Origin: Mumia sp. Pv4-285
Lineage (GTDB): Bacteria; Actinomycetota; Actinomycetes; Propionibacteriales; Nocardioidaceae
Reading direction: 5' to 3'
DNA: 64,000 nucleotides
Assembly: GCF_041320275.1 (NCBI RefSeq)
Contig: NZ_CP162023.1
Location: forward strand, 4,402,001 to 4,466,000
Positions 10,821 to 32,733 of this stretch are shown here, in pieces; within the stretch, counting starts at the first letter, position 1, and each line of letters starts with the position of its first letter. Under the pieces are notes generated by a model. The model was not told where the DNA came from. It did not search any database and was given only the letters and a program-made list of their open reading frames with translations. The position numbers and the translations under genes are program-made.

Positions 10821-13800
10821 TCAGTACCTCACCGGAGCAGTCCGCTTGCGCACCGTGCAGACGATGTCGCGCTGGTTGCCCGTCGGCCCGAGGTAGTTGA
10901 ACGTGTAGGACAGCTGCGCGTACCCCCCGATCAGGTGGGTCGGCTTCACCAGCAGGCGCGTGACGGAGTTGTGGATGCCTCCGCGCCGTCCGGTCTTCTG
11001 CGACTTCGGGACGTCGATCGTGCGCTCCTGGGCGTGGTGCACGAAGACGACGCCCTTGGGCATCCGGTGGCTGACGATCGCGCGTCCGACGTAGACGCCG
11101 TTGGCGTTGTCGCACTCCACCCAGTCGTTGTCGACGACGTCGATCCGCTCGGCGTCCTCGACGCTCATCCACACGGTCGGCCCGCCGCGCGACAGCGACA
11201 GCATCAGCAGGTTGTCCTGGTACTCGGAGTGGATCGACCACTTGCTGTGCGGCGTCAGGTAGCGGACCGCGACCTGGAGGGCACCGTCGTCGCTCGCCAG
11301 GGGTCTCGATCCTCCGCTGGCGCTCCGGCCTCGACCATCGGCGGGGACCTCCACGTCGCCGAACAGGCGGTGCATGTCGAGCGGTGGCCGGTACGTCGGG
11401 AGCTGCTCGCCGTAGTCGCGCATCCACGCGTGGTCGAGATAGAAGTGCATCCGGCCCGTCAGCGTGTGGAACGGCTTGAGTCGCTCGATGTTCACGGTGA
11501 ACGGCGCATACCGGCGGCCGCCGGTCTCGGAGCCCGACCACTCCGGCGAGGTGATCACCGGCTGCGGCGAGTCCTGCGTCATCGAGAAGGTGATCTGCTT
11601 CTCCTCCGCGCCCTCGGCGAGGTCGACGAGGTGCCGACCCGTACGCCGCTCGAGGTCGCGGAACCCCTGGACGGCGAGGCGTCCGTTGGTCGTCCCGGAG
11701 AAGGTCAGGATCGCCTCGGCCATGCGCGCGTCGGTGTCGATCGCCGGACGCCCGGCTCCCGCGCCGGACGACATCACGCCGTGCTTCGCCGCGATCGAGG
11801 CGACGGCCTCCTCGAGGTCGTACGTGATGTTCTTGACCGTGAAGCCGAGCTGCTCCGCCTTCGGACCGACCGTCACGAGCTTGTCCGCGATCGCGGTGTA
11901 GTCGCGCTCCACGACGGCGACCGCCGGCATCGTCTTGCCGGCGACCGGGTCGGTCTGCCCCTCGCGCCAGTCGAGGCTGCGGCCACCCGGCTGCGCGATC
12001 TCACCCGGCGTGTCGTGCTGGAGCGGGACCGTCACCAGGTCCTTGCGGGTGCCGAGGTGGGTCGCCGCGAGCTCCGACAGCTTCCGCGCGAGCGCGGTGA
12101 ACGTGTCGAAGTCGCTGCGCGCCTCCCACGGTGGGTCGATCGCCGGCGTGAACGCGTGGACGTACGGGTGCATGTCGGTCGACGACAGGTCGTACTTCTC
12201 GTACCAGGTCGCGGCCGGGAAGACGATGTCGGACAGCAGCGTCGTCGACGTCATGCGGAAGTCGGCCGAGACGAGCAGGTCCAGCTTCCCCTGCGGCTGC
12301 TCCTCCCGCCGGCGGATCGTCCGCGGGCCCTCCGCTGCGTCCGTCGCCTCCAGGTTCGACTGCGTGCCGAGCAGGTTCTGGAGGAAGTACTCGTTGCCCT
12401 TGGCCGACGACCCGAACAGGTTCGAGCGCCACAGCACCAGCGTGCGCGGCCAGTTCTCCGGGGCGTCGACGTCGTCGATCGCCGCGTTGAGACTGCCGTC
12501 CTGGAGACGGTCCGCGATCCACGTGCCGGCATCGGCGGCACTGCCGTCGGCGGTGGCAGCGGTCGCCTCGTCCGCGAGGTCGAGGGGGTTGCGGTCGAAC
12601 TGCGGATAGAACGGCATCCAGCCCATCCGTGCGGACTTCGCGATCACGTCCGCCGTGTGCAGGCCTTCGAGGTGTCCCTCGGCCAGCGGTGACGTCAGCA
12701 CCTCCTGGCGCGACCCGTCGGAGCGCCACTGCCCGGTGTGCATGTACCAGTACGAGGTGCCGGTCATCGTCCGCGGCGGACGTGACCAGTCCAGGCCGTT
12801 CGCGAGCGAGATCCACCCGGTGATCGGGCGGCACTTCTCCTGCCCGACGTAGTGCGCCCAGCCGCCACCGTTGCGCCCCATCGCGCCGGTCAGCATCAGG
12901 AGGGTGAGGATCGCCCGGTAGGTGACGTCGCCGTGGAACCACTGGCAGATGCCCGCACCCATGATGATCATCGAGCGCCCGCCCGACTCCTCCGAGTTGC
13001 GGGCGATCTCACGGGCGATGCGGATGCACTGCGCCGCCGGGACCGAGGTGATCTCCTCCTGCCACGCCGGCGTGTACGGCGAGGTCGCGTCGTCGTACCC
13101 GGTCGGCCACTCGCCCGGCAGACCGTCGCGGCCGACGCCGTACTGCGCGAGGAGCAGGTCGAGCACGGTCGTGACGGCGCGGCCGGCGACCTGGCGTACG
13201 GGGATGCCGCGCCGGATCACGCTGCCCGAGCCGTCGGGCGCGTCGAAGGACGGCATCAGCACCTCGGCCGGCTGCGCGTCGGGCCCGATCACCGACAGTG
13301 CCGGGTCGACGTCGCCGAGGTCGAGGTTCCAGCTGCCCTCGCCGGACTCGCCGTAGCGGAAACCCATCGACCCGTTCGGGACCACCGGCTCCCCCGTACG
13401 GGAGTCGATGAGGACGGTCTTCCACTCGGCGTTCTCGGATGCCGCTGGTCGAGGCGACGAAGTCGATCGAGACCCACCCAGGTCCGCCTCCGTCAGGAAC
13501 GTCTCCGGGACGTACGCCCCGTCCTCGGCCTGCTTCAGGGTGACCAGCATCGGCAGGTCGGTGTACTGCTTGACGTAGTCGGTGAAGAACGGCACCTGCC
13601 GCTGCAGGTAGAACTCCGTCAGCATCACGTGGCCCATCGCCATCGCGAGTGCCGCGTCCGTCCCCGCCTGGGCGGGCATCCACTCGTCGGCGAACTTCGT
13701 GTTGTCGGCGTAGTCCGGTGACACGGCCACGACCTTGGTCCCGCGGTAGCGCGCCTCTGCCATCCAGTGCGCGTCCGGTGTGCGTGTGACCGGGACGTTC

Positions 13801-14636
13801 GAGCCCCACATCAGGAGGTACGACGCGTCCCACCAGTCGCCCGACTCCGGGACGTCGGTCTGGTCACCGAAGACCTGCGGGCTCGCGACGGGAAGGTCGG
13901 CGTACCAGTCGTAGAAGGACGTCATCACGCCGCCGATGAGCTGGATGAACCGCGTACCGATGCAGTGCGACACCATCGACATCGCCGGGATCGGGGAGAA
14001 GCCTGCGCAGCGGTCCGGGCCGTACGTCTTGATCGTGTTGACGTGGGCTGCCGCCGCGATCTCGATCGCCTCGTCCCACGAGATCCGTACGAGGCCGCCC
14101 TTGCCGCGCGCGCTCTGGTAGCGGCGCCGCTTCTCCGGGTCCGCCGCGATCTCGGCGAACGCGAGGACGGGGTCGCCGAGGCGCTGCTTCGCCTCCCGGT
14201 ACATCTCGATCAGCACCCCGCGGCCGTACGGGTAGCGGACGCGGGTCGGCGAGTACGTGTACCAGGAGAAGGCCGCACCACGCGGACATCCGCGAGGCTC
14301 GTACTCGGGCCGGTCGGGGCCGGTGCTCGGGTAGTCGGTCTGCTGCGCCTCCCACGTGATGATGCCGTCCTTGACGTACACCTTCCACGAGCACGAGCCG
14401 GTGCAGTTCACACCGTGCGTGGAGCGGACGACCTTGTCGTGGCTCCAGCGGTCGCGGTAGAAGACGTCACCGCGGCGCCCACCCTCCCGGTAGACCGCGC
14501 GCCGATCGGCGGACTCGTCCCACCGGGTGAAGAAGTCACCGAGCGCGAGGAGGGCCTCCGAGGCCGGGCCGTCCGTGCCGGACGACGCTCCTCGGCGTCG
14601 TGATCGGGCTCGTCCTTCGCGGGTCGTGTCCGTCAT
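10821..14636 (-). CDS. narG: Respiratory nitrate reductase, alpha (molybdopterin) subunit
   Basis: The 1271-residue catalytic subunit, which reduces nitrate to nitrite at a bis-MGD molybdenum centre on the cytoplasmic face. The N-terminal FS0 cluster motif is STHGVNCTGSCSW, and the Asp-ligand region is near ADLPVASPQVFGDQTDVPESGD. ATG 14636 has AGGAGG 6 nt upstream and is the first gene of narGHJIK. Two loops carry extra residues encoded by the dispersed palindromic repeat: about 388-398 (SRSTSSPRP) and about 1099-1112 (GRGRSASGGSRPL). Both keep the frame. The protein is slightly longer than typical NarG, as expected from these additions. It should be functional if the loops are exposed. Confidence 0.97.
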   Translation of the reverse strand: MTDTTREGRARSRRRGASSGTDGPASEALLALGDFFTRWDESADRRAVYREGGRRGDVFYRDRWSHDKVVRSTHGVNCTGSCSWKVYVKDGIITWEAQQTDYPSTGPDRPEYEPRGCPRGAAFSWYTYSPTRVRYPYGRGVLIEMYREAKQRLGDPVLAFAEIAADPEKRRRYQSARGKGGLVRISWDEAIEIAAAAHVNTIKTYGPDRCAGFSPIPAMSMVSHCIGTRFIQLIGGVMTSFYDWYADLPVASPQVFGDQTDVPESGDWWDASYLLMWGSNVPVTRTPDAHWMAEARYRGTKVVAVSPDYADNTKFADEWMPAQAGTDAALAMAMGHVMLTEFYLQRQVPFFTDYVKQYTDLPMLVTLKQAEDGAYVPETFLTEADLGGSRSTSSPRPAASENAEWKTVLIDSRTGEPVVPNGSMGFRYGESGEGSWNLDLGDVDPALSVIGPDAQPAEVLMPSFDAPDGSGSVIRRGIPVRQVAGRAVTTVLDLLLAQYGVGRDGLPGEWPTGYDDATSPYTPAWQEEITSVPAAQCIRIAREIARNSEESGGRSMIIMGAGICQWFHGDVTYRAILTLLMLTGAMGRNGGGWAHYVGQEKCRPITGWISLANGLDWSRPPRTMTGTSYWYMHTGQWRSDGSRQEVLTSPLAEGHLEGLHTADVIAKSARMGWMPFYPQFDRNPLDLADEATAATADGSAADAGTWIADRLQDGSLNAAIDDVDAPENWPRTLVLWRSNLFGSSAKGNEYFLQNLLGTQSNLEATDAAEGPRTIRRREEQPQGKLDLLVSADFRMTSTTLLSDIVFPAATWYEKYDLSSTDMHPYVHAFTPAIDPPWEARSDFDTFTALARKLSELAATHLGTRKDLVTVPLQHDTPGEIAQPGGRSLDWREGQTDPVAGKTMPAVAVVERDYTAIADKLVTVGPKAEQLGFTVKNITYDLEEAVASIAAKHGVMSSGAGAGRPAIDTDARMAEAILTFSGTTNGRLAVQGFRDLERRTGRHLVDLAEGAEEKQITFSMTQDSPQPVITSPEWSGSETGGRRYAPFTVNIERLKPFHTLTGRMHFYLDHAWMRDYGEQLPTYRPPLDMHRLFGDVEVPADGRGRSASGGSRPLASDDGALQVAVRYLTPHSKWSIHSEYQDNLLMLSLSRGGPTVWMSVEDAERIDVVDNDWVECDNANGVYVGRAIVSHRMPKGVVFVHHAQERTIDVPKSQKTGRRGGIHNSVTRLLVKPTHLIGGYAQLSYTFNYLGPTGNQRDIVCTVRKRTAPVRY
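11302..11340. repeat. 39-nt palindromic repeat inside narG (C-terminal part)
   Basis: A near-perfect unit beginning GGTCTCGATCCTCCGCTGG and ending GGCCTCGACCATCG. Its 39 nt equal 13 codons. narG reads it in frame from the opposite strand to that used in the monooxygenase copy at 31928. Confidence 0.85.
13443..13474. repeat. 30-nt-type palindromic repeat inside narG (central part)
   Basis: CGCTGGTCGAGGCG followed by CGAAG and CGATCGAGACC matches the 30-nt form with two single-base insertions (32 nt). It is read in frame inside narG. Confidence 0.75.
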
Positions 14637-14754
14637 CGGGGCCTCCTCGCGATCACGCTAGGGCTCCGACCCGGGGGCCGCATCCGGAAGCCGACCGGGC
14701 ACTTTCGGGCTACGCTCGCCGGACCGAGATCCTCACGGGAGACGGAGGTTCGCG

Positions 14755-15075
14755 ATGCGTGACATCGCCGCGCTGACCCAGGAGTACGTGGACGCTTCGA
14801 GCTCCGCGCCGCACGGTCGCAGCGCCGAGCTGGTGCTCCAGGACGGGCCGCTGCGCCAGAGCGTCCTCGGTCTCGCCGAGGGCGCGGTGCTCTCGGAACA
14901 CGACTCGCCGCCGGCCGGGAGCGTGCTGGTCCTGAGGGGTGCGATCGAGATCATCGGCGAGTCCCAGACGATCGCCCTCGAGACGGGGATGCTGTCTGAG
15001 CTGCCGCGGGAACGTCACTCCGTACGGGCGACGGTCGACTCCGCGTTCCTGCTGACCGCCGTGACAGACATCTGA
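14755..15075 (+). CDS. Small cupin-like protein divergent from narG
   Basis: A 106-residue protein with a predicted single beta-barrel (cupin) fold: EGAVLSEHDSPPAGSVLVLRGAIEI followed by ETGMLSELPRERHSVRA matches the two cupin half-motifs. Only one of the usual metal-binding His residues is obvious, so metal binding is doubtful. ATG 14755 has GGAGG about 8 nt upstream. It is divergent from the nitrate reductase operon across 118 nt, so the two may share regulation, but its role is unknown. Confidence 0.8.
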   Translation: MRDIAALTQEYVDASSSAPHGRSAELVLQDGPLRQSVLGLAEGAVLSEHDSPPAGSVLVLRGAIEIIGESQTIALETGMLSELPRERHSVRATVDSAFLLTAVTDI

Positions 15076-15083
15076 CCCACCCC

Positions 15084-15207
15084 CGCTGGTCGAGGCGCGA
15101 AGCGATCGAGACCCAGGTCTCGATCCTCCGCTGACGCTCCGGCCTCGACCACCGAAAACCACGCACGCCCACCCCCCGCTGGTCGAGGCGCGAAGCGATC
15201 GAGACCT
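15084..15207. repeat. Cluster of three palindromic repeat units between convergent genes
   Basis: Units at 15084-15113 (30 nt, CGCTGGTCGAGG...GATCGAGACC), 15117-15155 (39 nt, opposite orientation) and 15178-15207 (30 nt). They lie between the cupin gene (+) and the iron-transport ATPase gene (-). The last unit ends on the ATPase stop codon, whose TAG begins with the final C of GAGACC read on the other strand. Opposed units can pair into a long hairpin. Confidence 0.85.
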
Positions 15208-16000
15208 ATCCCGCGTGGTGACGTCCGCGGGGGACGACCATCGGCGTGCCGCTGACCGGATCCGGGACGACCTCGCACGGCAGCCCAAACACCTCCTGCA
15301 CGACCTCGGGTGTGATGACGCCGTGCGGCTTGCCCTCGGCGACGATGCGCCCGGCCTTCATCGCGATCAGGTGGTCGGCGTAGCGGCTGGCGAGGTTGAG
15401 GTCGTGCAGCACGATGACGATCGTCTTGCCGCGCTCGCGGTTGAGGTCGGTGAGGAGGTCGAGCAGCTCGACCTGGTGCGCGATGTCGAGGAACGTCGTG
15501 GGCTCGTCGAGCAGCAGCAGGTCGGTGTCCTGCGCGAGCGCCATCGCGACCCAGATGCGCTGCCGCTGCCCGCCGGAGAGGTCCTGGATGCGACGGTCGA
15601 TGAGCGCCACGGTGTCGGTGGCCTCGAGCGCCGCAGCGACCGCGGCCTCGTCGTCGGCGGTCCACCGGCGGAACCACCCCTGGTGCGGGTAGCGTCCGCG
15701 CCCGACGAGGTCGCCGACGGTGATGCCGTCGGGCGCGACCGGTGACTGCGGCAGCAGCCCGAGCACCTTCGCGAGCTCGATGCTGCGCATGTCGGTGACC
15801 GAGACGCCGTCGAGCATCACGGCTCCCACCTGCGGCTTCAAGAGGCGCGCGAGCCCGCGCAGCAGGGTCGACTTGCCACAGGCGTTCGCGCCTACGATGA
15901 CGGTGATCGCGCCGTCGGGCACGGCCACGGTCAGCTCGGAGACGACGGTGCGCTCGTCGTACCCGAGGGAGAGCCCGTCGGCTCGCAGGTCGTGCTTCAT
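15206..16000 (-). CDS. Iron-siderophore ABC transporter, ATP-binding protein (FecE/FepC type)
   Basis: A 264-residue ABC ATPase that powers ferric-siderophore import. Walker A is GANACGKST (about 38-46), with Ala-Cys in place of the common Gly residues. The signature is LSGGQRQR, Walker B is LLLLDEPTTFLD, and the switch His is in IVLHDLN. These are typical FecE/FepC features. ATG 16000 overlaps the downstream-facing permease stop by 4 bp. It is the last gene of a three-gene operon behind an IdeR-like box. No substrate-binding protein gene is present here. Confidence 0.93.
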   Translation of the reverse strand: MKHDLRADGLSLGYDERTVVSELTVAVPDGAITVIVGANACGKSTLLRGLARLLKPQVGAVMLDGVSVTDMRSIELAKVLGLLPQSPVAPDGITVGDLVGRGRYPHQGWFRRWTADDEAAVAAALEATDTVALIDRRIQDLSGGQRQRIWVAMALAQDTDLLLLDEPTTFLDIAHQVELLDLLTDLNRERGKTIVIVLHDLNLASRYADHLIAMKAGRIVAEGKPHGVITPEVVQEVFGLPCEVVPDPVSGTPMVVPRGRHHAG

Positions 16001-17073
16001 CCGCCTCGTCCTCCACGGTTGACGCTCACGAGGAGCCACAGCAGGTACGGCGCGCCGACCGCGCCGGTCACGACTCCCGTCGGCAGCGCCGTCGGGAGGA
16101 GGTGCGCGGCGACCAGCTCTGAGGACAGCACGAGGGCTGCTCCGACCAGTGCCGACGCCGCCAGCGCGCCCGGAGCGGGGCCCAGGAGGCGGTGGGCGAC
16201 CGGTCCTGCGACCAGCGCCACGAACATGATCGGTCCCGCCGCCGCGGTGGCGAACGCGACCAGCACGATCGCGAGGGTCATCAGGGCCCAGCGAGCGGTC
16301 TCGACGCGGATCCCGAGCGCCGACGCGGAGTCGTCGCCCAGCTCGAGCCCGCGCAGCGGGCGGGCGAGGAGCCCCGTGAGCGGCACCGAGAGGAGGAGCA
16401 CGACGAACAGGGCGCGCAGGGTGCCCGCGTCGGCCATCCCGACCGAGCCGATGATCCACGTCATCGCCTCGCGCGCGGCGTGGATGTCGGCGCGCGCCAC
16501 GAGGTAGCCGGTCAGCGACAGCATGAACTGCGAGATGCCGATGCCGATGAGGATGAACCGGTAGCCGGTGACGCCGCCGCGCCACGCCAGCGCGTAGACG
16601 AGGAGCCCCGAGACCAGCGCGCCGACCAGCGCCGCGATCGAGGTGGCGAAGCCGGAGAGCGAGACGACGATGATCGCGCCGGCCGCGAAGAGGCTCGCCC
16701 CGGACGAGACGCCGACGAAGTCGGGAGAGGCGAGCGGGTTCGCGAGGAGGGTCTGGAAGACGACCCCGGCCAGGCCGAGGGCCAGCCCGACCCCGAGGGC
16801 CGCGAGAGCGACGGGGAGTCGGATGCCCTGCACGACGAAGTCCACGGCCGGGTCGTGGCCGATGTGCAGCACGGACACGACCACGTCCATCAACGGCAGC
16901 CGGTAGCTGCCGACCATCAGCATCGTGACGAACAGTGCGACCACGACGACGGACAGACCGACGAGGACCACAGTCGTACGGCGCTGCAGCCGGTGGCGGT
17001 GCGCGGCGAGGGCGGCCGGCACGTCAGCCGACGACGGCACGGGTGGCCCGGGGCGGGTCGCGGTGGCGCTCAC
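15997..17073 (-). CDS. Iron-siderophore ABC transporter permease (FecCD family), second
   Basis: A 358-residue FecCD-family permease with 9-10 membrane helices. The family motif region GVVFQTLLANPLASPDFVGVSSGA (about 100-123) and the ATPase-coupling segment GLELGDDSASALG are clear. The GTG start at 17073 overlaps the previous permease stop by 4 bp (GTGA). It forms the import channel together with the permease encoded upstream. Confidence 0.93.
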   Translation of the reverse strand: MSATATRPGPPVPSSADVPAALAAHRHRLQRRTTVVLVGLSVVVVALFVTMLMVGSYRLPLMDVVVSVLHIGHDPAVDFVVQGIRLPVALAALGVGLALGLAGVVFQTLLANPLASPDFVGVSSGASLFAAGAIIVVSLSGFATSIAALVGALVSGLLVYALAWRGGVTGYRFILIGIGISQFMLSLTGYLVARADIHAAREAMTWIIGSVGMADAGTLRALFVVLLLSVPLTGLLARPLRGLELGDDSASALGIRVETARWALMTLAIVLVAFATAAAGPIMFVALVAGPVAHRLLGPAPGALAASALVGAALVLSSELVAAHLLPTALPTGVVTGAVGAPYLLWLLVSVNRGGRGG

Positions 17074-18119
17074 AGCTCGGTCAGGTTCCGGTAGCGGACG
17101 AGCAGGACGAAGAACGGGGCACCGAGCACGCCGAGCACGACGCCCACCTGGAGCTCACCGTCCGGCACGGCGAGGCGCCCGAGGATGTCGGCGACGAGCA
17201 GCACGATCGGGGACAGCACGAGGCTGAAGGCGAGGATCGCGCGATAGTCGGGCCCGCAGATCATGCGCGCGACGTGGGGCACCACGAGGCCGACGAAGAC
17301 GATCGGTCCGCAGGCCGCGGTCGCGGCGCCGCAGAGCACGGCGACGGTGACGAAGAGGACGGCTCGGGTGACGCCGACGCGCTGCCCGAGCGCGACCGCG
17401 ACGTCCTCGCCGAGCGCCAGCCCGTTGAGGGCGCGGCCTGCCCCGACGGCGACCACGAGGCCGATCACGATGAACGGCAGCGTCTGCCAGAAGACCGGCA
17501 TGTAGCGTCCGGCGAGAGCACCGACCTGCCAGAACCGCAGCTCGTTGAGCGCCTCGGTGCTCGTCATGACGAGGGCCGACGTGAACGCCGTGAGCCCAGC
17601 GGTGACTGCTGCTCCGGCGAGCGCCAGCTTGACCGGCGTTGCCCCCTCCCGCCCGAACGACGAGACGCCGTAGACGACCACCGTCGCGAGGCCGGCGCCG
17701 ACGAAGGCCGCCCAGATCTGGCCGGAGAGCGACCCGATGCCGAGCAGCGACGCCGACGCGACGACCGCGGCTGCCGCTCCCGCGTTGATGCCCATGATCC
17801 CGGGGTCGGCGAGCGGGTTGCGCGTGACGCCCTGCAGGATCGCGCCGCTCATCCCCAGCGCCGCGCCGACGGTGAGCCCGAGCAGGGTGCGCGGCACCCG
17901 CATCTCGCGGATCACCGCGTGCTCGGTGGACGACGGGTCGAACGCGTCGAACGCGTCCCAGACCGTGCGCAGCGTGATGTCTCGCGACCCCATCGAGATG
18001 CTGAAGAAGCAGACGACCAGCAGCAGGCCGACGAGCAGCACCCAGGAGACGCCGAGCCTGAGGAGTCGCCTGGGGCGCGCCGGCACCGCGGGCGCGGGAC
18101 GCGTCGCGACGTCGGTCAT
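17070..18119 (-). CDS. Iron-siderophore ABC transporter permease (FecCD family), first
   Basis: A 349-residue FecCD-family permease and the first gene of the operon. Conserved segments are GAILQGVTRNPLADPGIMGI, GLALGEDVAVALGQRV (coupling helix) and GPIVFVGLVVPHVAR. Divergent promoters and an iron box lie 45-65 nt upstream, so repression by iron-loaded IdeR/DtxR is likely. The operon order is permease-permease-ATPase. The extracytoplasmic binding lipoprotein must be encoded elsewhere. Confidence 0.94.
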   Translation of the reverse strand: MTDVATRPAPAVPARPRRLLRLGVSWVLLVGLLLVVCFFSISMGSRDITLRTVWDAFDAFDPSSTEHAVIREMRVPRTLLGLTVGAALGMSGAILQGVTRNPLADPGIMGINAGAAAAVVASASLLGIGSLSGQIWAAFVGAGLATVVVYGVSSFGREGATPVKLALAGAAVTAGLTAFTSALVMTSTEALNELRFWQVGALAGRYMPVFWQTLPFIVIGLVVAVGAGRALNGLALGEDVAVALGQRVGVTRAVLFVTVAVLCGAATAACGPIVFVGLVVPHVARMICGPDYRAILAFSLVLSPIVLLVADILGRLAVPDGELQVGVVLGVLGAPFFVLLVRYRNLTEL

Positions 18120-18164
18120 GGTGGTGCTCCTCGGCGGGCGGAGCCAGCAGTGTGGCGGATTGGC

Positions 18165-18183
18165 TTAGGGGAGCCTACCCTCG
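18165..18183 (-). promoter_or_regulatory. IdeR/DtxR-like iron box
   Basis: TTAGGGGAGCCTACCCT (18165-18181) matches about 14 of 19 positions of the known actinobacterial iron-repressor consensus, TTAGGTTAGGCTAACCTAA. It lies upstream of the siderophore permease operon (-) and of the DUF4383 gene (+). Confidence 0.75.
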
Positions 18184-18223
18184 TTCTGCCTGACCGCGGC
18201 CACCACGGGTACGCAACTCTTCC

Positions 18224-18610: not shown

Positions 18611-18637
18611 CATCACCGCATCGGCGTCGGCTGACGG

Positions 18638-19936: not shown

Positions 19937-19978
19937 GCATCCGTACGAGGACGTGAGGCGCCCGACCCGCGAGACCGG

Positions 19979-22039: not shown

Positions 22040-22058
22040 CTGGCTGACGCCGACCTCC

Positions 22059-22096: not shown

Positions 22097-22136
22097 GACC
22101 GTGGGAACGCCGATGACGCCGCGTTGACTCGAGCTC

Positions 22137-22226
22137 ATGAGTCTTGACACCGGCCTCCTGATCACCCTGGTGGTCCTTCTGATCGGCTACCTCGTCGCGT
22201 CCCTCGTCAACCCGGAGCGCTTCTGA
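22137..22226 (+). CDS. kdpF: KdpF, small subunit of the K+-transporting ATPase
   Basis: A 29-residue single-helix peptide (TGLLITLVVLLIGYLVASLV, ending NPERF) with the length and C-terminal pattern typical of KdpF, which stabilises the KdpABC complex. ATG 22137 to TGA 22226. The stop overlaps the kdpA start (TGATG). It is the first gene of kdpFABCDE. Confidence 0.9.
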   Translation: MSLDTGLLITLVVLLIGYLVASLVNPERF

Positions 22227-23902: not shown

Positions 23903-25917
23903 CCCTCTCCCAGCTCGTGAGCCAGGTCCCCACGGCCATGGCCAAGCTCGATCCGCGCCACATGTGGCGCAATCCGGTGATGTTCGTGGTGCTCATCGGG
24001 TCCGTCCTCACGACGGTCCTCGCGGTGGCCGACCCGGACGGTTTCACGATCGCCATCGCCGTCTGGCTGTGGCTCACGGTGATCTTCGGCAACCTCGCCG
24101 AAGCGGTGGCCGAAGGGCGCGGCAAGGCACAGGCAGCGTCTCTGCGCGCCACCCGCAAGGACACGGTCGCGCGACGGGTCGGAAGAGACGGAACCGAGAC
24201 AGAGGTTCCCGGCACCGACCTGACGATCGGCGACCTGGTCGTCGTCGAGGCCGGCGAGGTCATCCCTGGCGATGGCGACGTCGTCGAGGGCATCGCCTCG
24301 ATCGACGAGTCGGCGATCACCGGCGAGTCCGCCCCGGTCATCCGTGAGGCCGGCGGTGACCGGTCTGCGGTGACCGGCGGTACGACCGTGCTGTCGGACC
24401 GCGTCGTCGTCAAGATCACCGCCGCTCCGGGCAGCACGTTCATCGACACGATGATCGCGCTGGTCGAAGGAACGTCGCGGCGCAAGACGCCCAACGAGAA
24501 CGCCCTGACGATCCTGCTCTCGAGCCTCACGATAGTCTTCCTGCTCGCGGTAGCGACGCTGGCACCGATGGCCGAGTACGCCGGCGCTCCGCAGCGGACC
24601 CTCGTCCTGGTGGCGCTGCTCGTGTGCCTGATCCCCACCACGATCGGCGCCCTGCTCTCGGCGATCGGCATCGCAGGCATGGACCGGCTCGTCCGGGTCA
24701 ACGTGCTGGCGATGTCCGGGCGGGCCGTCGAGGCCGCCGGCGACGTCGGCACGCTGCTGCTCGACAAGACCGGCACGATCACCTACGGCAACCGACGCGC
24801 GACCGCCTTCGTCCCGCAGGCGGGGCTCGACCCCGATGTCCTGCGCGACACCGCTCGCCTCTCCAGCCTGGCCGACCCCACTCCCGAGGGCCGTTCCATC
24901 GTCGAGCTGGCCCTCACGCAGGGCGCAGCGGACTCCACGCTCCCTCGCGGGGCGCAGGTCGTCGAGTTCTCGGCGACAACCCGGATGTCCGGGCTCGACC
25001 TCGCCGACGGGTCGCAGGTCCGCAAGGGCGCCGCGTCGGCAGTCCTCGCCTGGCTCGGCGACACCGCGCTCCCCCCGAGCGTCGAGTCGGCCGTCGAGCG
25101 GATCAGCGCCGACGGCGGGACGCCGCTGGTCGTCGCGGTACGTCCCTCGCAGAGCGGGGCGCCGACGTCGGGGCAGGTCCTCGGCGTCGTCCACCTCAAG
25201 GACGTCGTCAAGCCCGGCATGGTCGAGCGGTTCGCCGAGCTGCGGCGGATGGGCATCCGTACCGTCATGGTGACCGGTGACAATGCGATCACCGCAAAGG
25301 CGATCGCCGTCGAGGCGGGCGTGGACGACGTGCTCGCGGAGGCGACTCCCGAGGACAAGATGGCGTTCATCCGTCAGGAGCAGGCAGGCGGTCGCCTGGT
25401 CGCGATGACCGGTGACGGTACGAACGACGCCCCGGCCCTGGCCGCCGCGGATGTCGGTGTCGCAATGAGCTCGGGCACGTCGGCCGCCAAGGAGGCCGGC
25501 AACATGGTCGACCTCGACTCCGACCCGACGAAGCTCATCGACATCGTCGAGATCGGCAAGCAGCTGCTCATCACCCGCGGCGCACTGACGACGTTCTCGG
25601 TCGCGAACGACGTGGCGAAGTACTTCGCGATCATCCCCGCGATGTTCGTCGCGGCGTACCCGAGCCTGGAGGCTCTCGACATCATGCGGCTGCACAGCGC
25701 CGAGTCGGCGATCCTCTCCGCGGTGATCTTCAACGCGCTGATCATCGTCGCGCTGATTCCGCTCGCACTCCGGGGCGTGAAGTACCGCGTCACCTCGGCG
25801 GCGGGCCTGCTGCGACGCAACCTGCTCGTCTACGGGCTCGGCGGCCTGGCGGCGCCGTTCGTCGGGATCAAGATCATCGACCTCCTCCTCTCGAGCCTCT
25901 TCGGCTCCGCGCTCTGA
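23899..25917 (+). CDS. kdpB: Potassium-transporting ATPase, subunit B (P-type ATPase)
   Basis: A 672-residue type IA P-ATPase that hydrolyses ATP for K+ import. The phosphorylated Asp289 is in [12 protein letters not shown]. Other motifs are TGES in the actuator domain, the nucleotide-binding region around [11 protein letters not shown], and [21 protein letters not shown]. The size and motifs match KdpB, and its start overlaps the kdpA stop by 4 bp. Confidence 0.98.
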
Positions 25918-25954
25918 GCCGGACGGAACCAGCCACATGGAAGGGACAACCCGC

Positions 25955-26593
25955 ATGGCCACCACCACCTCACCCGCCCGGGACACCGATGCGACCCCGG
26001 GGCGGGGCCCGCTCGGTGCCGGACTGATCCGCCAGACCGCGACCGGCCTTCGGCTGCTGCTCGTTCTGACCGTCATCCTCGGCGTCGCGTACCCGGCGGC
26101 CGTCTGGGCCGTCGCCCAGGTCGTCGCGAACGGCCGTGCGAACGGTCAGATCGTCGAGGTCGACGGCTCACCGGTCGGCTCCGCGATCATCGGTCAGGCC
26201 TTCGACGACCCCGCGCTGTTCCACTCGCGCCCGTCGGCGACGGAGTACGACGGCCTGGCGAGCGCGGCGAGCAACCTCGGTCCGTCCAACCCGGACCTCC
26301 TCGCCTCGATCGAGGAGCGTCGCAACGCCGTCGCCGCGGAGGAGGGCGTCGCACCGGCCGACGTCCCCGCCGACGCGATCACGGCCTCGGGCTCGGGTCT
26401 GGACCCGCACATCTCTCCCGCGTACGCCGACATCCAGGCCGCGCGCGTCGCCGAGGCGAACGGGTTGAGCGACGCGACCGTGCACCGCCTCATCACCGAG
26501 TACACGGCCGGGCGGGCCTTGGGCGTGCTCGGCGAGGAGGGCGTCAACGTCCTGCTCCTGAACATCGCGATCCGCGACGCTGTGACGGACTGA
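25955..26593 (+). CDS. kdpC: Potassium-transporting ATPase, subunit C
   Basis: A 212-residue assembly/affinity subunit with one N-terminal helix (LLLVLTVILGVAYPAAVWAVAQ) and a periplasmic-side domain. Conserved KdpC segments are IGQAFDDPALFHSRPSAT, ASGSGLDPHISPAYADIQ and LGVLGEEGVNVLLLNIAI. I chose ATG 25955 because AAGGGA lies about 9 nt upstream; an in-frame ATG at 25937 lacks a good ribosome site and would add six residues. Confidence 0.96.
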   Translation: MATTTSPARDTDATPGRGPLGAGLIRQTATGLRLLLVLTVILGVAYPAAVWAVAQVVANGRANGQIVEVDGSPVGSAIIGQAFDDPALFHSRPSATEYDGLASAASNLGPSNPDLLASIEERRNAVAAEEGVAPADVPADAITASGSGLDPHISPAYADIQAARVAEANGLSDATVHRLITEYTAGRALGVLGEEGVNVLLLNIAIRDAVTD

Positions 26594-26597
26594 CAGG

Positions 26598-29174
26598 ATG
26601 GCCGGTATGGACCACCCGCCCACGCGTCGCGGGCGGCTCCGGGTCTATCTCGGTGCCGCGCCCGGCGTAGGGAAGACGTACCGGATGCTCGACGAGGGCC
26701 GCCGCCGCACCGATCGCGGCACCGACGTCGTCGTCGCGTACGTCGAGACCCACGGCCGCAAGCACACCGCCGAGCAGCTCGACGGCCTCGAGGTCGTCCC
26801 CCGTCGGGCCGTCGCGTACGGGGGCTCCTCGTACGAGGAGCTCGATCTCGACGCGGTGATCGCGCGACGGCCCGAGGTCGCCCTCGTCGACGAGCTCGCA
26901 CACACCAACGTGCCCGGGGTCGAGCACACGAAGCGCTGGGAGGACGTCGTCACCCTGCTCGACCACGGCATCGACGTCGTCACCACCGTGAACGTGCAGC
27001 ACCTCGAGTCGCTGAACGACGTCGTCGAGGCCATCACCGGCGTACGCCAGCGCGAGACCGTGCCCGACCAGGTGGTGCGCGACGCCGATGCCATCGAGCT
27101 CGTCGACATGAGCCCGCAGTCGTTGCGGCGTCGCCTCGCCCACGGCAACGTCTACGCCGCCGACAAGGTCGACGCGGCGCTCTCCCGCTACTTCCGCGAG
27201 GGCAACCTGTCGGCGTTGCGCGAGCTCGCGCTGCTGTGGGTCGCCGACCGGGTCGACGAAGGAATGACCCGGTACCGGCAGGAGCACCGCATCGACTCCA
27301 CCTGGCCGACCCGAGAACGCATCGTCGTGGCGGTCACCGGAGGTCCGGAGTCGCCGACCCTGCTCCGCCGTGCCGCTCTGATCGCCGGCCGGACAGCGGG
27401 CGGGGAGTGGATGGCCGTCTACGTCACTCGCGGCGACGGTCTGACGAGCACCTCGCCGGACCAGCTCGCCCGACAGCACACGATGGTGCACGACATGGGC
27501 GGCAGCTTCCACACCGTCGTCGCCGACGACGTCGCCACCGGGATCCTCGAGTTCGCCCGCGCGGAGAACGCCTCCCAGATCCTGATCGGCGCGTCACGCC
27601 GGGCGCGATGGTCGGCCGCACTTCGGCCCGGCGTCGGCGAGCGCGTGATCGCCGGTTCGGGCGACGTCGACGTCCACATCGTCAGCCACGGCGAGGCGGG
27701 CCGCGGAACGCGCAACCGTCAGCGCCGCCCCGACCTCGGCACGCGGCGTACGGTGCTGGGCTACGTCCTCGGCGTGCTCGCACCGGCAGTCGCGACCTTC
27801 GTGCTGCTGTCCACCGCTGACCTTCACGACCTCACGCTCGAGTCGATGGTCATGCTGAGCGTCGTCGTGGTCGTGGCACTCGTAGGCGGCCTGGTGCCCG
27901 CCCTGCTCGCCGCGGCACTGTCCGCCCTGCTCCTCAACTGGTACTTCGTGTCTCCGACGCAGACGCTGACGATCGCCGGCGGTCAGTACGTCGCGGTGAT
28001 CGCCGTCTTCGTCGTCGTGGGCGTGGCGGTCGCATCCGTCGTCGACCTTGCGGCCGGCCGCGCGGCGCAGGCACGACGCGCATCGACCGAGGCAGACGCC
28101 CTCGCGGTGCTGTCGCACAGCCTGCTGCGGGCCGGCGAGAGCCTCCCGGCCCTCCTCGCCCAGGCGACGGAGGTCTTCGGGATGCGCGGTGCCGCGATCC
28201 TGGCGAGGCACGGCGACGACGCCTGGACCACCGTCGTCGCACACGGCGACGCTCCCTCGTCGGTCAGCGCGTCCGACGTCGACGTGCCGATCGACGAGAC
28301 CACGACGCTGGTCCTGCGTGGGCGGACCCTGGCCGCCTCAGAACGACGGCTCGTCACGGCGTACGCCGCCCATGCCGGGGTCGTGGGCGAGCGGCTGCGG
28401 GCGGCGGAGGAGCAAGCCCGGGCCCACGAGCTTGCCGAGGCCGACCGGACCCGTACGGCGCTGCTGGCCGCGGTCTCGCACGACCTGCGGAGCCCGCTGG
28501 CCGCGGTCAAAGCAGCGGTCACGAGCCTCCGCAACGAGGACATCGTGTGGTCGGACGAGGACGAGGCCGACCTGTTGATGACGATCGAGGAGTCGGCCGA
28601 CCGGCTCGACGCCCTCGTCGAGAACCTGCTCGACATGAGCCGGCTGCGGACCGGTGCGCTCAGCGTGCTGCTGACCGACGTCGACCTTGTCGAGGTGGTG
28701 CACCGCGCGGTCGGTCCGCTCTCGGAGGCGCCTCGCATCGACGTGCGAGTCGACCCCGGTATGCCTCTCGCGTACGCGGATCCGGGGCTCCTCGAGCGGG
28801 TCCTCGCGAACCTGTGCGAGAACGCGCTCAAGCACACCGTCGGGCGCGTGACGGTCCAGGGCTCGGCGCACACGGAGCTCGGCGGTCGAGCGACAACGTG
28901 CATCCGCGTCGTCGACCACGGGCCAGGGGTCGAACCGGAGGCGTACGACCGGCTCTTCGCCCCCTTCCAGCGGCTCGGTGACGTCCCGCAAGGAGATGGC
29001 GTCGGGCTCGGCCTCGCCGTGGCCCGCGGCCTGACCGAGGCGATGTCGGGCACGCTCGAGGTCGATGAGACACCAGGCGGCGGTCTGACGTTCGTCGTGA
29101 CCCTGCCGCAGGCGAAGGCACCGGACGCCGCGGCCGTACAGGTCCCCGACGAGGGCGAGGAGGACCCGCGATGA
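26598..29174 (+). CDS. kdpD: Sensor histidine kinase KdpD
   Basis: An 858-residue osmotic/potassium sensor. The order is: N-terminal KdpD domain with Walker A GAAPGVGKT (about 16-24) and DELAHTN, then a universal-stress-like domain (about 235-370), four DUF4118 helices (about 385-495), a GAF-like region, then HisKA with His628 in AVSHDLRSPLAAVK and HATPase with the N-box NLCENALKHT and GVGLGLAVA. It presumably phosphorylates the adjacent KdpE. Translation begins 4 nt after the kdpC stop. Confidence 0.97.
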   Translation: MAGMDHPPTRRGRLRVYLGAAPGVGKTYRMLDEGRRRTDRGTDVVVAYVETHGRKHTAEQLDGLEVVPRRAVAYGGSSYEELDLDAVIARRPEVALVDELAHTNVPGVEHTKRWEDVVTLLDHGIDVVTTVNVQHLESLNDVVEAITGVRQRETVPDQVVRDADAIELVDMSPQSLRRRLAHGNVYAADKVDAALSRYFREGNLSALRELALLWVADRVDEGMTRYRQEHRIDSTWPTRERIVVAVTGGPESPTLLRRAALIAGRTAGGEWMAVYVTRGDGLTSTSPDQLARQHTMVHDMGGSFHTVVADDVATGILEFARAENASQILIGASRRARWSAALRPGVGERVIAGSGDVDVHIVSHGEAGRGTRNRQRRPDLGTRRTVLGYVLGVLAPAVATFVLLSTADLHDLTLESMVMLSVVVVVALVGGLVPALLAAALSALLLNWYFVSPTQTLTIAGGQYVAVIAVFVVVGVAVASVVDLAAGRAAQARRASTEADALAVLSHSLLRAGESLPALLAQATEVFGMRGAAILARHGDDAWTTVVAHGDAPSSVSASDVDVPIDETTTLVLRGRTLAASERRLVTAYAAHAGVVGERLRAAEEQARAHELAEADRTRTALLAAVSHDLRSPLAAVKAAVTSLRNEDIVWSDEDEADLLMTIEESADRLDALVENLLDMSRLRTGALSVLLTDVDLVEVVHRAVGPLSEAPRIDVRVDPGMPLAYADPGLLERVLANLCENALKHTVGRVTVQGSAHTELGGRATTCIRVVDHGPGVEPEAYDRLFAPFQRLGDVPQGDGVGLGLAVARGLTEAMSGTLEVDETPGGGLTFVVTLPQAKAPDAAAVQVPDEGEEDPR

Positions 29175-29848
29175 CGGTCGTGCTCGCGGTCGACGACGAC
29201 CCGGCGATCCTTCGCACGCTGCGCATCAACCTGCGGGCTCGCGACTACGAGGTGGAGACGGCCGGGGACGGCCGGTCGGCGCTGCAGGCTGTCGAGGACC
29301 GGGTACCTGACGTGATCCTTCTCGACCTCGGCCTCCCGGACCTCAGCGGCGTGGCAGTGATCCGGCGGGTCCGCGCGACGAGCAGGGTGCCGATCGTGGT
29401 GCTCTCGGCCCGGCACGAGTCCGACGACAAGGTCGAGGCGCTCGACGCGGGTGCCGACGACTACGTGACGAAGCCGTTCGGGATGGAGGAGCTCTTGGCC
29501 CGGGTGCGCGCCGCCGTCCGGCGTGGTGGCCTCGCCGAAGTCCCCGCCTCGGCGGTGACGATCGGCCGGCTTGTCCTCGACCCGGACGACGGCACCGCGA
29601 CGAGGGACGGAGCAGAGATCCACCTCACCCCCACGGAGTGGAGGATCGTCAGCACGCTGCTCAGGCGATCTGGCCGCCTCGTGCGCCAGGCGGAGCTGCT
29701 GCGAGAGGTTTGGGGACCGGCGTACGAGAAGGAGACCCACTATCTGCGTGTCTACATGGCGCAGATCCGTCGCAAGCTCGAGGACGACGCTGCGAACCCG
29801 CAGCACTTCGTGACCGAGCCGGGCCTGGGCTACCGCTTCGTCCCCTGA
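29171..29848 (+). CDS. kdpE: Response regulator KdpE
   Basis: A 225-residue OmpR-family regulator with receiver Asp52 in VILLDLGLPD, VLSAR, the Lys in DDYVTKPFG, and a winged-helix domain ending YLRVYMAQIRRKLE. Its start overlaps the kdpD stop by 4 bp. It likely activates kdp transcription through the GTCAAG array at 22059-22096. A repeat cluster follows the stop codon. Confidence 0.96.
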   Translation: MTVVLAVDDDPAILRTLRINLRARDYEVETAGDGRSALQAVEDRVPDVILLDLGLPDLSGVAVIRRVRATSRVPIVVLSARHESDDKVEALDAGADDYVTKPFGMEELLARVRAAVRRGGLAEVPASAVTIGRLVLDPDDGTATRDGAEIHLTPTEWRIVSTLLRRSGRLVRQAELLREVWGPAYEKETHYLRVYMAQIRRKLEDDAANPQHFVTEPGLGYRFVP

Positions 29849-29855
29849 GACACCT

Positions 29856-30058
29856 GGTCTCGAGACGGGCTCGTTCCTCGCCCTCCTCGACCAGCGAAAA
29901 AGGGGGTCCCGCTGGTCGAGGCCGGAGCGCCAGCCCCCCGCTGGTCGAGGCCGGAGCGCCAGCACCCCCGCTGGTCGAGGCCGGAGCGCCAGCGGAGGAT
30001 CGAGACCACCAGCGCGTGGTCTCGAGACGGGCTCGTTCCTCGCCCTCCTCGACCAGCG
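29856..30058. repeat. Cluster of five palindromic repeat units between convergent genes
   Basis: Two 41-nt units, 29856-29896 and 30018-30058, are identical (GGTCTCGAGACGGGCTCG start, CTCGACCAGCG end). Between them lie two truncated 25-nt units (29910-29934, 29939-29963) and one full 39-nt unit (29969-30007) in the opposite orientation. The 200-nt region between kdpE (+) and the SnoaL-like gene (-) is almost entirely this repeat. Confidence 0.9.
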
Positions 30059-30067
30059 GGGGACGAC

Positions 30068-30454
30068 TCACCGCACCGTCGGCCGGTCGATGATCCACCG
30101 CCACGTGCCGTCGGGCTGTCGGCGCGCGACCTCGCACGTGGCGCCGCCCGCCCCGGCGCTCATCGGGAGGACCGTCGTCGTCAGCGCCAGGTCGCCGCGC
30201 ACGAGCGGACGTCGCGGGATGCCGGCACGCACGGGCCGGTGCGCGGCGAGCGCGTGTGTGTAGAAGTCACGGATGTCGTCGTGACCGACGGCGACGCGGC
30301 CGTCGGGGAGCTCCAGCACAGCCGTCGGCTCGTACAGGGCGACCACCCCGTCGACGTCGCGGGCGGTGAGGCGGTCGACGAGCTGCGTGCTCAGCTCGTC
30401 AGGAGTGCGGGGGGCGGCGGGAGGGGCTGACCGGAGCGGCGACGGCGTGGACAT
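30068..30454 (-). CDS. SnoaL-like / NTF2-fold protein
   Basis: A 128-residue protein with the alpha+beta-barrel pattern of the SnoaL/NTF2-like superfamily: LVDRLTARDVDGVVALYEPTAVLELPDGRVAVGHDDIRDFYTHAL. No specific catalytic residues are assignable, so the activity is unknown. ATG 30454 is preferred; longer upstream frames overlap the divergent gene at 30525. It is a single gene. Confidence 0.82.
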   Translation of the reverse strand: MSTPSPLRSAPPAAPRTPDELSTQLVDRLTARDVDGVVALYEPTAVLELPDGRVAVGHDDIRDFYTHALAAHRPVRAGIPRRPLVRGDLALTTTVLPMSAGAGGATCEVARRQPDGTWRWIIDRPTVR

Positions 30455-30524
30455 GTGTTCGACCGTACGAGGAGGCGCCGACAGTTCTCCCGCGCCGTGC
30501 AGAGCGACGGTAGCGTCGCTACGC

Positions 30525-31105
30525 ATGAGCAGCTTCCAAGACGCGCCGCGCCTGCCGGTCACCTCGCCCGGGCAGTGGCGCGACTGGTTGGCCGAGCACC
30601 ACGACGACCCCGATCCTGGCGTGTGGATCGTGTGGGAACGGACGGCGGCGGCGCGCAGCGTGTCGTACGAGGAGCTCATCGAGGAGGCGCTCGCGTACGG
30701 CTGGATCGACGGTCAGGCGGCCACGCTCGACGACGAGCACTCGATGATGTGGATGACGCGCCGTCGGCGTGGCTCGGTGTGGAGCCGCCTGTCGAAGGAG
30801 CGAGTCGCCCGCGTGGTCGAGTCCGGGCGCATGACCCGGCGGGACAGGCGGCGATCGACCGCGCGAAGGCTGACGGCTCGTGGACGATCCTCGACAGCGT
30901 CGAGGCCTTGATCGTCCCGGACGACCTCGCCGCAGCGTTCGATACGGTCCCTGGCTCGCGGGAGCAGTACGAGTCCTTCACTCCCGGCCAGCGCAAGCAG
31001 GTCCTGCGCTGGCTGGTCGACGCGAAGCGACCGGCGACCCGCGAGAAGCGGATCACCGAGGCGGTGCGCCTCGCTGCCGAGGGAGTCCCCGCCAACAACC
31101 GGTGA
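30525..31105 (+). pseudogene. YdeI/OmpD-associated-family gene with a frameshift
   Basis: The first 102 codons from ATG 30525 encode the start of a YdeI-like protein (WRDWLAEHHDDPDPGVWIVWERTA, then AYGWIDGQ and SVWSRLSKERVARV). The matching C-terminal part (AGQAAIDRAKADGSW through ANNR, stop 31105) continues in another frame. Homologues read MTPAGxAAxxRAK at the junction, so one C appears lost from the CCC run at 30835-30837. Restoring it gives a normal protein of about 193 residues. This is either a true single-base pseudogene or a sequencing error. Confidence 0.8.
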
Positions 31106-31114
31106 CGCCCCCGC

Positions 31115-31510
31115 TCAGCCGAGCGGCTGCAGGAACTCGAGCCGGTTGCCGAACGGGTCATCCGCATAGAAGCGACGGTGGCCGGGGAACGCGTCGTCCC
31201 ACCGCACGTCGACGCCACCGGCCGTCAGCCGTTCCGCGACGTCGTCGATCCGCGCGACCAGGAACCCCGGGTGCGCCTTGCGTGCGGGCGCGAACTCCTT
31301 CTCGACACCCAGGTGGACCTCGATGCCGCCCGAGCGGAACCAGCATCCCCCGCGTGCCGCGAGCTCCGGCGGTTTCTCGAGCTCGTGCATCCCGAGCAGG
31401 CCGACCCAGAACGCGCGGCACGCGTCCTCCCCACCGGCGGGGATCGCGAGCTGGACGTGGTGCAGGTGGACGAACGCGAGGTGCTCGGGGTCGGAGTGCG
31501 GACCGGTCAT
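31115..31510 (-). CDS. VOC-family (glyoxalase/dioxygenase-fold) protein
   Basis: A 131-residue vicinal-oxygen-chelate protein with two beta-alpha-beta modules. The first contains LHHVQLAIPAGGEDACRAFWVGLLGM, the second HPGFLVARIDDVAERL and ends DPFGNRLEFLQ, a hallmark of this fold. Candidate metal ligands are the His of HHVQLAIP and the Glu of NRLEFLQ. The substrate is unknown. It is a single gene. Confidence 0.88.
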   Translation of the reverse strand: MTGPHSDPEHLAFVHLHHVQLAIPAGGEDACRAFWVGLLGMHELEKPPELAARGGCWFRSGGIEVHLGVEKEFAPARKAHPGFLVARIDDVAERLTAGGVDVRWDDAFPGHRRFYADDPFGNRLEFLQPLG

Positions 31511-31578
31511 GGGCCCACGCTAGCCGTGGCGCGTGCCACGTACGGAACACCCACGGGCGCAGGCTGGTTGTCCCGTAC

Positions 31579-32733
31579 GTGACCACCTCCCCGGACCCCA
31601 CGCGCCGCGTCGACGTCGTCGTCATCGGTGCGGGGCAGGCAGGGCTGTCGGCGGCGTACCACCTGAAGCGCCTCGGCGCCTCGTTCGTCGTCCTCGACGC
31701 CAACCCTGCACCGGGTGGCGCGTGGCAGCACCGCTGGCGGAGCCTGACGATGAGCGACGTCCACGGCATCGCGATGCTCCCCGGTCTCGACGTCCCCGAG
31801 CGGGTCAACGACGAGCCGGCGCGCACGTTCGTACCGGCGTACTACGCGGCGTACGAGGCGCGGTTCGACCTCCCGGTCGTACGCCCGGTCCGGGTGCTCC
31901 GGGTCGAGGACGCCGAGGCATCGGCGGGGTCTCGATCCTCCGCTGGCGCTCCGGCCTCGACCAGCGAGACCGCTGGTCGCGACCTCCTCGTCCGCACTGA
32001 CGTCGGCACCTGGCGCGCCCCCGCCGTCATCAACGCGACCGGGACGTGGGAGCGGCCGTTCTGGCCGTCGTACCCCGGAGGGTCGTCGTTCCGCGGGCGG
32101 CAGCTGCACACCGTCGACTACGAGGGCCCTGAGGCGATGGCCGGGCTCGACGTCGTCGTCGTCGGCGGCGGCGCGTCCGCCGTCCAGATCCTAGGCGAGG
32201 TCGCACCGGTCACCGCGTCGACGACGTGGGTGACGCGCCGCGAGCCGGTCTGGCGCGTCGGCGAGTTCAACCCCGATGCCGGCCGCGACGCGGCGGCGCT
32301 GGTCGAGGACCGCGTACGGCGTGGGTTGCCGCCGCAGAGCGTCGTCAGCGTCACCGGTCTGATGCTGCGGCCGCAGGAGCAGCGCGCGGCCGCGATGGGC
32401 GCGTACGACCGGCACCCGATGTTCACGCGGATCGAGCCGGACGGGGTGCGGATGGCGGACTGGTCGTTCCGGCACGCCGACGTGATCGTGTGGGCGACCG
32501 GGTTCCGCGCGGCGCTCGGACATCTCGCCCCGCTGCACCTGCGCGAGGACACCGGCGGCGTACGCCTCGTCGCTCGTGAGGACGCCCACACCCCGACGAC
32601 GGCGGCGCGCGACCACCGCGTGCAGCTCGTCGGGTACGGCCCGTCGGCGTCGACCATCGGCGCGAACCGCGCGGGACGCGTCGCGGCGCGCTCGGCGATG
32701 CGCGTCGTCGCGTCCCGGGCTGCAGCAGCCTGA
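31579..32733 (+). CDS. Flavin-containing monooxygenase-like FAD/NAD(P) oxidoreductase
   Basis: A 384-residue class-B-monooxygenase-like protein. The FAD-binding GAGQAG (about 14-19) and NADPH-binding VVGGGASAVQI motifs are present. A CzcO-like pattern (PGGAWQHRWRSLTMSD) and an ATG-type motif (WATGFRAAL) support this. Residues about 117-129 (SRSSAGAPASTSE) are encoded by a 39-nt palindromic repeat unit and would form an added loop. GTG 31579 was chosen because the Rossmann motif follows at the usual distance. The substrate is unknown. Confidence 0.88.
   Translation: MTTSPDPTRRVDVVVIGAGQAGLSAAYHLKRLGASFVVLDANPAPGGAWQHRWRSLTMSDVHGIAMLPGLDVPERVNDEPARTFVPAYYAAYEARFDLPVVRPVRVLRVEDAEASAGSRSSAGAPASTSETAGRDLLVRTDVGTWRAPAVINATGTWERPFWPSYPGGSSFRGRQLHTVDYEGPEAMAGLDVVVVGGGASAVQILGEVAPVTASTTWVTRREPVWRVGEFNPDAGRDAAALVEDRVRRGLPPQSVVSVTGLMLRPQEQRAAAMGAYDRHPMFTRIEPDGVRMADWSFRHADVIVWATGFRAALGHLAPLHLREDTGGVRLVAREDAHTPTTAARDHRVQLVGYGPSASTIGANRAGRVAARSAMRVVASRAAAA
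31928..31966. repeat. 39-nt palindromic repeat inside the monooxygenase gene
   Basis: A perfect consensus 39-nt unit: GGTCTCGATCCTCCGCTGG at the start and CGGCCTCGACCAGCG at the end. It is translated in frame from the strand opposite to that used in narG. Confidence 0.88.

Follow-up and report, generated by a model that had tools for sequence, protein, structure and literature searches.

A family of short hairpin repeats was surveyed in the genome of Mumia sp. Pv4-285 (Nocardioidaceae; a single contig of 4.65 Mb, with dnaA at position 607), centred on a stretch of 64,000 nucleotides at positions 4402001-4466000, here called the window. We regard these repeats, with a probability of roughly 0.68, as a hairpin family resembling the repetitive extragenic palindromes (REPs) and the bacterial interspersed mosaic elements (BIMEs). 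The first-pass annotation of the window had likened them to the Rickettsia palindromic elements (RPEs). Its wider claim, that the repeats are a dispersed family able to get into reading frames, was borne out, and the likeness to RPEs describes the minority of copies lying in genes; the whole pattern, with copies behind genes, in convergent spacers, in inverted pairs and in tandem arrays, is that of REPs and BIMEs. Below, the own genome is called G000 and that of Mumia xiangluensis G064.

Repeat units and their hairpin structure

An exact full unit was defined as GGTCTCGA-N-CTCGACCA. Twelve such units were found in the window, with 0 in each of 20 background sequences resampled with its dinucleotide frequencies. 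Two truncated units (29910-29963), two right halves (33954-33989) and a 72-nt compound copy (1408-1479) bring the total to about 17, in line with the at least 17 units first annotated. Genome-wide, the strict pattern ending in AGCG gave 102 matches, 51 on each strand and 0 in the control, at least three of the matches listed being nested in another. A search of the whole window against Rfam at the gathering score gave no match to the repeats; the sole match was a ZTP riboswitch (RF01750) at 50431-50521 on the minus strand, with 47.6 bits.

In each unit fixed and covarying ends (a GGTC/GACC stem, and TCGA against CTC) flank a variable core, and many cores are themselves inverted repeats. Position 4 of the outer stem and its partner were C-G in 151 cases, T-A in 9, C-A in 1 and T-G in 0 (window and loci L031-L181); all four combinations were searched, and a few units are counted twice where loci overlap. 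The inner pair joins the position that follows TCGA to the one that precedes CTC; among 92 distinct units it was T-A in 35, C-G in 13 and G-C in 11. This set was gathered by searching for matching outer pairs alone, so that its 100% outer pairing is by construction. Eight stretches, including one of genome G138, entered both counts. The paired copies examined fold strongly as RNA, with z of -5.6 and -4.5 on the two strands of 15084-15154, -4.5 for 59742-59849 and -4.4 for 29969-30058. Pairs facing each other left end to left end, with gaps of 1-13 nt, were made of unlike units in 22 of 24 cases in G000 and 12 of 13 in G064, and a left-to-left partner within 20 nt was present for 35 of 88 intergenic copies against 1 of 22 genic ones (p 9e-4).

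Four main unit lengths occur (30, 32, 39 and 41 nt), and their consensus units have no stop codon in any of the six frames, as annotated for those of 30, 39 and 41 nt. The annotation described the 30- and 39-nt forms as multiples of three; the other two of the four, of 32 and 41 nt, are not. Dinucleotide shuffles of each consensus unit are stop-free in 47-58% of cases, TAG is present in one reverse frame of two longer consensus forms from other genera, and the 23-nt GGTTTCGA form carries TGA.

The copies in the window are as follows.

1408..1479, plus strand: compound copy of 72 nt (left half ... right half), in the histidine kinase-DUF4153 frame (gene on the minus strand), between HATPase and DUF4153
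8965..9006, plus strand: eroded 41-nt form, 83% to the 41-nt form, in narJ (8452-9141, minus strand)
11302..11340, plus strand: 39-nt unit in narG (gene on the minus strand), residues 1100-1112, ahead of the Molydop_binding match
13443..13474, minus strand: 32-nt unit in narG, in the gene direction, residues 388-397
15084..15113, minus strand: 30-nt unit in a convergent spacer, facing the unit at 15116..15154
15116..15154, plus strand: 39-nt unit in a convergent spacer
15177..15206, minus strand: 30-nt unit in a convergent spacer, abutting the stop codon of an ABC transporter gene; kept in M. xiangluensis
29856..29896, plus strand: 41-nt unit in a convergent spacer
29910..29963, minus strand: two truncated 39-nt units in tandem, right part only
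29969..30007, minus strand: 39-nt unit in a convergent spacer
30018..30058, plus strand: 41-nt unit in a convergent spacer, facing 29969-30007
31928..31966, plus strand: 39-nt unit in the flavin monooxygenase gene (31579-32733, plus strand)
33912..33989, plus strand: 30-nt-type unit with two extra right halves, in a PadR-type regulator gene (33384-34022, plus strand)
59742..59780, plus strand: 39-nt unit in a convergent spacer
59820..59849, minus strand: 30-nt unit in a convergent spacer, abutting the stop codon of a minus-strand gene

The annotated hosts narG (twice), flavin monooxygenase and kinase frame are backed by Pfam. The kinase frame (2-2557, minus strand) joins a histidine kinase and DUF4153, with the compound repeat in the intervening stretch; the copy was correctly placed, but the second domain had been named DUF4173. 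The narJ copy reduces to an eroded match, and family half-sites stand at this position also in G064, G049 and G021. The PadR-type regulator (33912-33989) is a genic site beyond those first listed. Translation of the narG and monooxygenase copies from opposite strands was confirmed for the copy at 11302, which runs against its gene, and for the monooxygenase copy, which runs with its own; the second narG copy, however, also runs with the gene.

Placement between and within genes

In 924 kb of G000 there are 110 exact units, of which 52 lie in convergent, 30 in tandem and 6 in divergent spacers and 22 in genes. The stretches were mostly picked for holding copies, which raises all rates and should favour no class. 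Although 91% of the sampled sequence is genic, only 22 of the 110 copies lie in genes, which are therefore avoided. Occupied spacers numbered 22 of 127 convergent, 21 of 355 tandem and 4 of 140 divergent ones (Fisher test: convergent against divergent 6e-5, convergent against tandem 4e-4; tandem and divergent did not differ, 0.25). The window has three intergenic clusters, and by our gene calls each is flanked by convergent genes, as had been claimed for every cluster, but of the 47 occupied spacers in the larger sample only 22 are convergent. A convergent bias, which the first-pass annotation had named as a check on its reading, was found. A slightly different unit pattern, applied to 880 kb of M. 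xiangluensis, gave 86 units, distributed as 27 convergent, 28 tandem, 11 divergent and 20 genic, with 16 of 131 convergent, 18 of 314 tandem and 4 of 144 divergent spacers occupied. Twenty-seven distances of 15 nt or less to a stop codon were recorded; the unit runs in the gene direction in 18 of these, including 11 of 11 at 4 nt or less. Sites are enriched near the origin, with 32 of 67 less than 650 kb from dnaA (28% of the genome; p 4e-4), and the nearer half of the genome holds 40 of 67 (p 0.07). In 37 of 44 single units (G000 and G064 together) the right end is followed by G, and G is frequent at the next positions too; this G may be either part of the element or a preference of the target.

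The 22 genic sites fall in 20 proteins, and 18 of them are outside Pfam domains (4 inside against 13.7 expected, p 1e-5). One genic row, G000:C1:231463, was taken as a chance match since the stretch recurs in G064 with no difference in length; it is kept in the counts of 110 and 22 and dropped from this linker test, to which the compound copy at 1408 was added, giving again 22. By Pfam, the hosts include NarG, a biotin carboxylase-type protein, an Mfd-type helicase, an ABC ATPase, a 2-oxoacid dehydrogenase E2, a DnaX-type protein, a fusion of chorismate-binding, aminotransferase and amidotransferase domains (named PabAB here) and a MiaA-type transferase. Codon phases in G000 are 2, 13 and 4 (p 0.004), and 15 of the 19 opposite-strand genic copies of both genomes are in one phase (p 6e-5), though some of them share a gene. 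The phase and Pfam-linker biases are what the purging of harmful insertions would leave.

Comparison with other Mumia genomes supplied orthologues lacking the inserted residues, as the first-pass annotation had expected. The narG copy at 13443 is a net gain of 30 nt against both G064 and G021, and in G049 the site holds a GGTTTCGA/CTCAACC unit. The monooxygenase copy is a net gain of 45 nt against four other Mumia genomes; no unit stands at the site in these four, and G021 has a lone left half-site. At narG 11302 the relatives are too divergent for a clean empty site, and the stretch in G021 is 126 nt longer, with TA-form units. The PadR site holds other subfamilies in G064 and G049 and no unit in G038 and G021.

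Turnover and spread among relatives

Aligned blocks of G000 and G064 are mostly 77-93% identical. Among 31 sites compared, 16 are filled in both (one being the chance match), 4 are partial, 5 are empty in G064 and 6 have no usable synteny. Of 16 sites with typed units in both genomes, 9 have in common one or more units that agree in subfamily and orientation, and 7 have none, as judged by eye and with the chance match left out. Subfamilies are swapped at PabAB (30-nt against TA-type) and PadR (30-nt against T-A type). Exactly alike 30-nt units are 44 of 72 in G000 and 30 of 43 in G064. G000 has five tandem 30:39 pairs where G064 has one, and six where G064 has two; a 30:41 array is the longer of the two at one site in G064 but the shorter at a second. 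The five-pair array of G000, which also contains extra right halves, forms a 162-bp tandem repeat (L132:9228-10038; own genome 4264228-4265038). Extra right halves in genic copies come after the right end (L-R-R-R), and an extra left half was seen at one locus, PadR of G049. A close species pair that would offer clean empty sites was sought with one 4-kb stretch of G138 against 215 genomes of its genus, and the best other genome had 80% identity. As a separate observation, the nar region of G049 is parted from the following syntenic block by about 38 kb of additional DNA, lying between the equivalents of window positions 15.1 and 18.6 kb.

Eight genic comparisons were clear. Orientation is the same in 7 (judged by eye; one-sided chance 0.035), and in 6 the units belong to different subfamilies. 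The narJ and narG 11302 sites (both orientations) and the monooxygenase site (lone half-site in G021) were left out of this count, and AccA and the empty cases yield no comparison. Same orientation combined with different subfamily favours, at these small numbers, descent of an old element whose core would have been rewritten, rather than independent insertions.

A looser pattern found matches in 143 of 149 Nocardioidaceae genomes (controls 0-2). In many of these the matches are few and resemble chance hits in coding sequence; 31 genomes have at least 50, and the maximum is 250. The six Mumia genomes gave 122 (own), 95, 4, 25, 165 and 148. Among 396 Actinomycetota genomes the form with a T-A outer stem occurs in 17 (G156 28, G445 25, G435 6, own 3, G372 2), the remaining 12 having one or two matches each that are not family-like, and the TA-core form occurs in 4 (G019 243, G372 24, G415 5, own 2). 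Between the window's NarG and its M. xiangluensis counterpart identity is 94%, against 70-76% (best segment) for those of the 79 other loci retained. Units are present at 6 of 80 named narG loci, belonging to Mumia, Agromyces, Nocardioides, two Gordonia and a Propionibacteriaceae metagenome-assembled genome. The architecture is common to Nocardioidaceae and some other Actinomycetia, as species-specific bursts.

The domain of the REP-associated tyrosine transposases (RAYTs), Y1_Tnp, has no match in the own genome and is present in only 2 of the 149 family genomes (147 without), those two having 2 and 7 pattern matches; all family genomes with more than 100 copies are without it. No target-site duplication above permutation was found in the flanks of 44 singletons of G000 and G064, with the element ends assumed: flank matches of 2 nt numbered 14 against 10.8 expected (permutation maximum 17), those of 3 nt 1 against 1.2, and those of 4-8 nt none. 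DUF222 genes, which we take to be of the 13E12 type, were considered as mobiliser and rejected. They are present in 147 of 149 genomes, so their presence is uninformative, and the first-look candidates had a rank correlation of 0.25 with pattern count (p 0.15; 35 genomes of one genus), a weak test as few genomes exceed 14 scored matches.

Comparison with known repeats and alternative explanations

In the BIMEs of E. coli unlike units are inverted at short spacers and the pair is tandemly arrayed; Mumia likewise has inverted pairs with short spacers and tandem arrays of the pair, and its facing units are mostly unlike, though not significantly so when counted by locus (8 of 9, p 0.10). The BIME sequence is not known to be related to the Mumia units, and E. 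coli has a Y1_Tnp match whereas the Mumia genome has none. REPs, in the account of PMC3733652, are high-copy palindromes of 20-40 bp which lie downstream of coding regions in convergent or unidirectional spacers, form inverted dimers and have some intragenic copies, with replication and repair genes among the hosts. The Mumia repeats are similarly short high-copy hairpins that lie for the most part outside genes, behind them or in convergent spacers, with inverted dimers and intragenic copies whose hosts include proteins with Mfd and DnaX domains. They also share with the CGTC REPs of that account, in which RPE-4 and RPE-6 of R. conorii are included, the lack of a dedicated transposase. The RPEs originally described measure about 150 bp and are known for genic insertion (PMC10969869); in-frame inserts in unrelated protein genes are common to them and Mumia (PMC10969869, PMC3733652), but the Mumia copies are of 30-41 nt and mostly intergenic (22 of 110 genic). 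Miniature inverted-repeat transposable elements (MITEs) are likewise small and dispersed with related inverted ends, but no target-site duplication accompanies the Mumia units. The main text of PMC3733652 has none of the ten actinobacterial group or genus words looked for, and no description of these repeats was found in the open-access literature by title or abstract start, subscription journals being mostly uncovered.

If the repeats are a REP/BIME-like family, copies would multiply locally by tandem duplication, as the observed arrays suggest, and some sites may be rewritten by copying between repeats, through template switching or gene conversion. Genic copies would then be tolerated side products, surviving where a linker insert of about 10-15 residues is harmless. 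From placement and folding, paired copies might act mainly as RNA, as bidirectional 3' hairpins ending or protecting the transcripts of converging genes; we put this at somewhat less than an even chance. A bolder reading, which we hold to be doubtful, is that the hairpins form an Actinomycetia super-family spread and rewritten without RAYT by an undescribed host process that copies in place between dispersed hairpins. With similar doubt, sites including the DnaX-, E2-, PabAB- and PadR-type linkers would in that super-family keep the element over speciation, many swapping the core and even the C-G/T-A end pair.

Several observations weigh against a REP/BIME-like hairpin family with a role as RNA. 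The units end in GGTC and AGCG, with no GTAG or CGTC at the unit end as in REPs (PMC3733652); in relatives' forms GTAG is internal only, beside the core (CTAC on the strand shown). No RAYT is present in the Mumia genome, in difference from RAYT-linked REPs and from REPINs. The inner pair is not Watson-Crick in 33 of 92 distinct units, 23 of these having T with C as in the 30- and 39-nt units of Mumia, and the two single units examined do not fold strongly (z +0.3 and -1.0), the 39-nt one no better than shuffles. Counted by locus, because arrays repeat themselves, facing pairs are unlike in 8 of 9 cases with 37% expected alike (p 0.10, not significant), and a left-to-left partner is missing for 53 of 88 intergenic copies. 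Four of the 22 genic sites fall within Pfam matches. The codon-phase bias holds in G000 but not in G064 (7, 10 and 3; p 0.16, not significant). The gene calls of the 924-kb sample came from a purpose-made codon model.

It is unlikely that the repeats are static functional sites, terminators or binding sites of a chromosome-organising protein, which arose and are kept by selection with no mobility. Convergent and 3' placement, the origin-near enrichment (32 of 67 less than 650 kb from dnaA, p 4e-4) and the 9 of 16 doubly filled sites keeping subfamily and orientation in G064 would suit such sites. They would not explain that many copies are exactly alike (44/72 and 30/43) despite block identities of 77-93%, that 7 of 16 sites have no common unit, that copies lie in 20 protein genes, and that pattern counts range from 4 to 165 within Mumia. 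Mobility of a familiar type, as RAYT-mobilised REPs whose transposase was recently lost or as MITEs of an unseen transposon, seems quite unlikely. Y1_Tnp is found in 2 of 149 genomes, with 2 and 7 matches, and every genome with more than 100 copies is without it, although hairpins, inverted pairs and the want of target duplications fit Y1-type mobility and GTAG does stand beside the core in relatives' forms; for a DDE-type MITE, no flank match of 3 nt or more exceeds permutation.

Least probable, and in our view very unlikely, is a selfish family of the RPE kind, selected to stay open in all frames so as to survive in genes. Some genic copies are clean in-frame inserts with orthologues free of them, most lie outside Pfam domains, and the codon phase is biased in G000, with 15 of 19 opposite-strand copies in one phase (p 6e-5); but the phase and linker biases follow from removal of harmful insertions. 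Stop-freeness is expected from composition (0.47-0.58 per unit), two relatives' forms carry TAG, lengths of 32 and 41 nt are not divisible by three, and genes, with 91% of the sequence, have 22 of 110 copies. On these same grounds the first-pass suggestion of an element selected to be harmless in coding DNA is weak and finds no support.

GTAG REPs are tied to RAYT. A family of similar habits in which RAYT is nearly always absent makes it possible to ask cleanly by what other means hairpins of this sort are moved or rewritten. These repeats are also suited to asking whether hairpins terminate transcripts where genes converge in GC-rich bacteria, and by what route linker peptides in proteins arise from repeated DNA.

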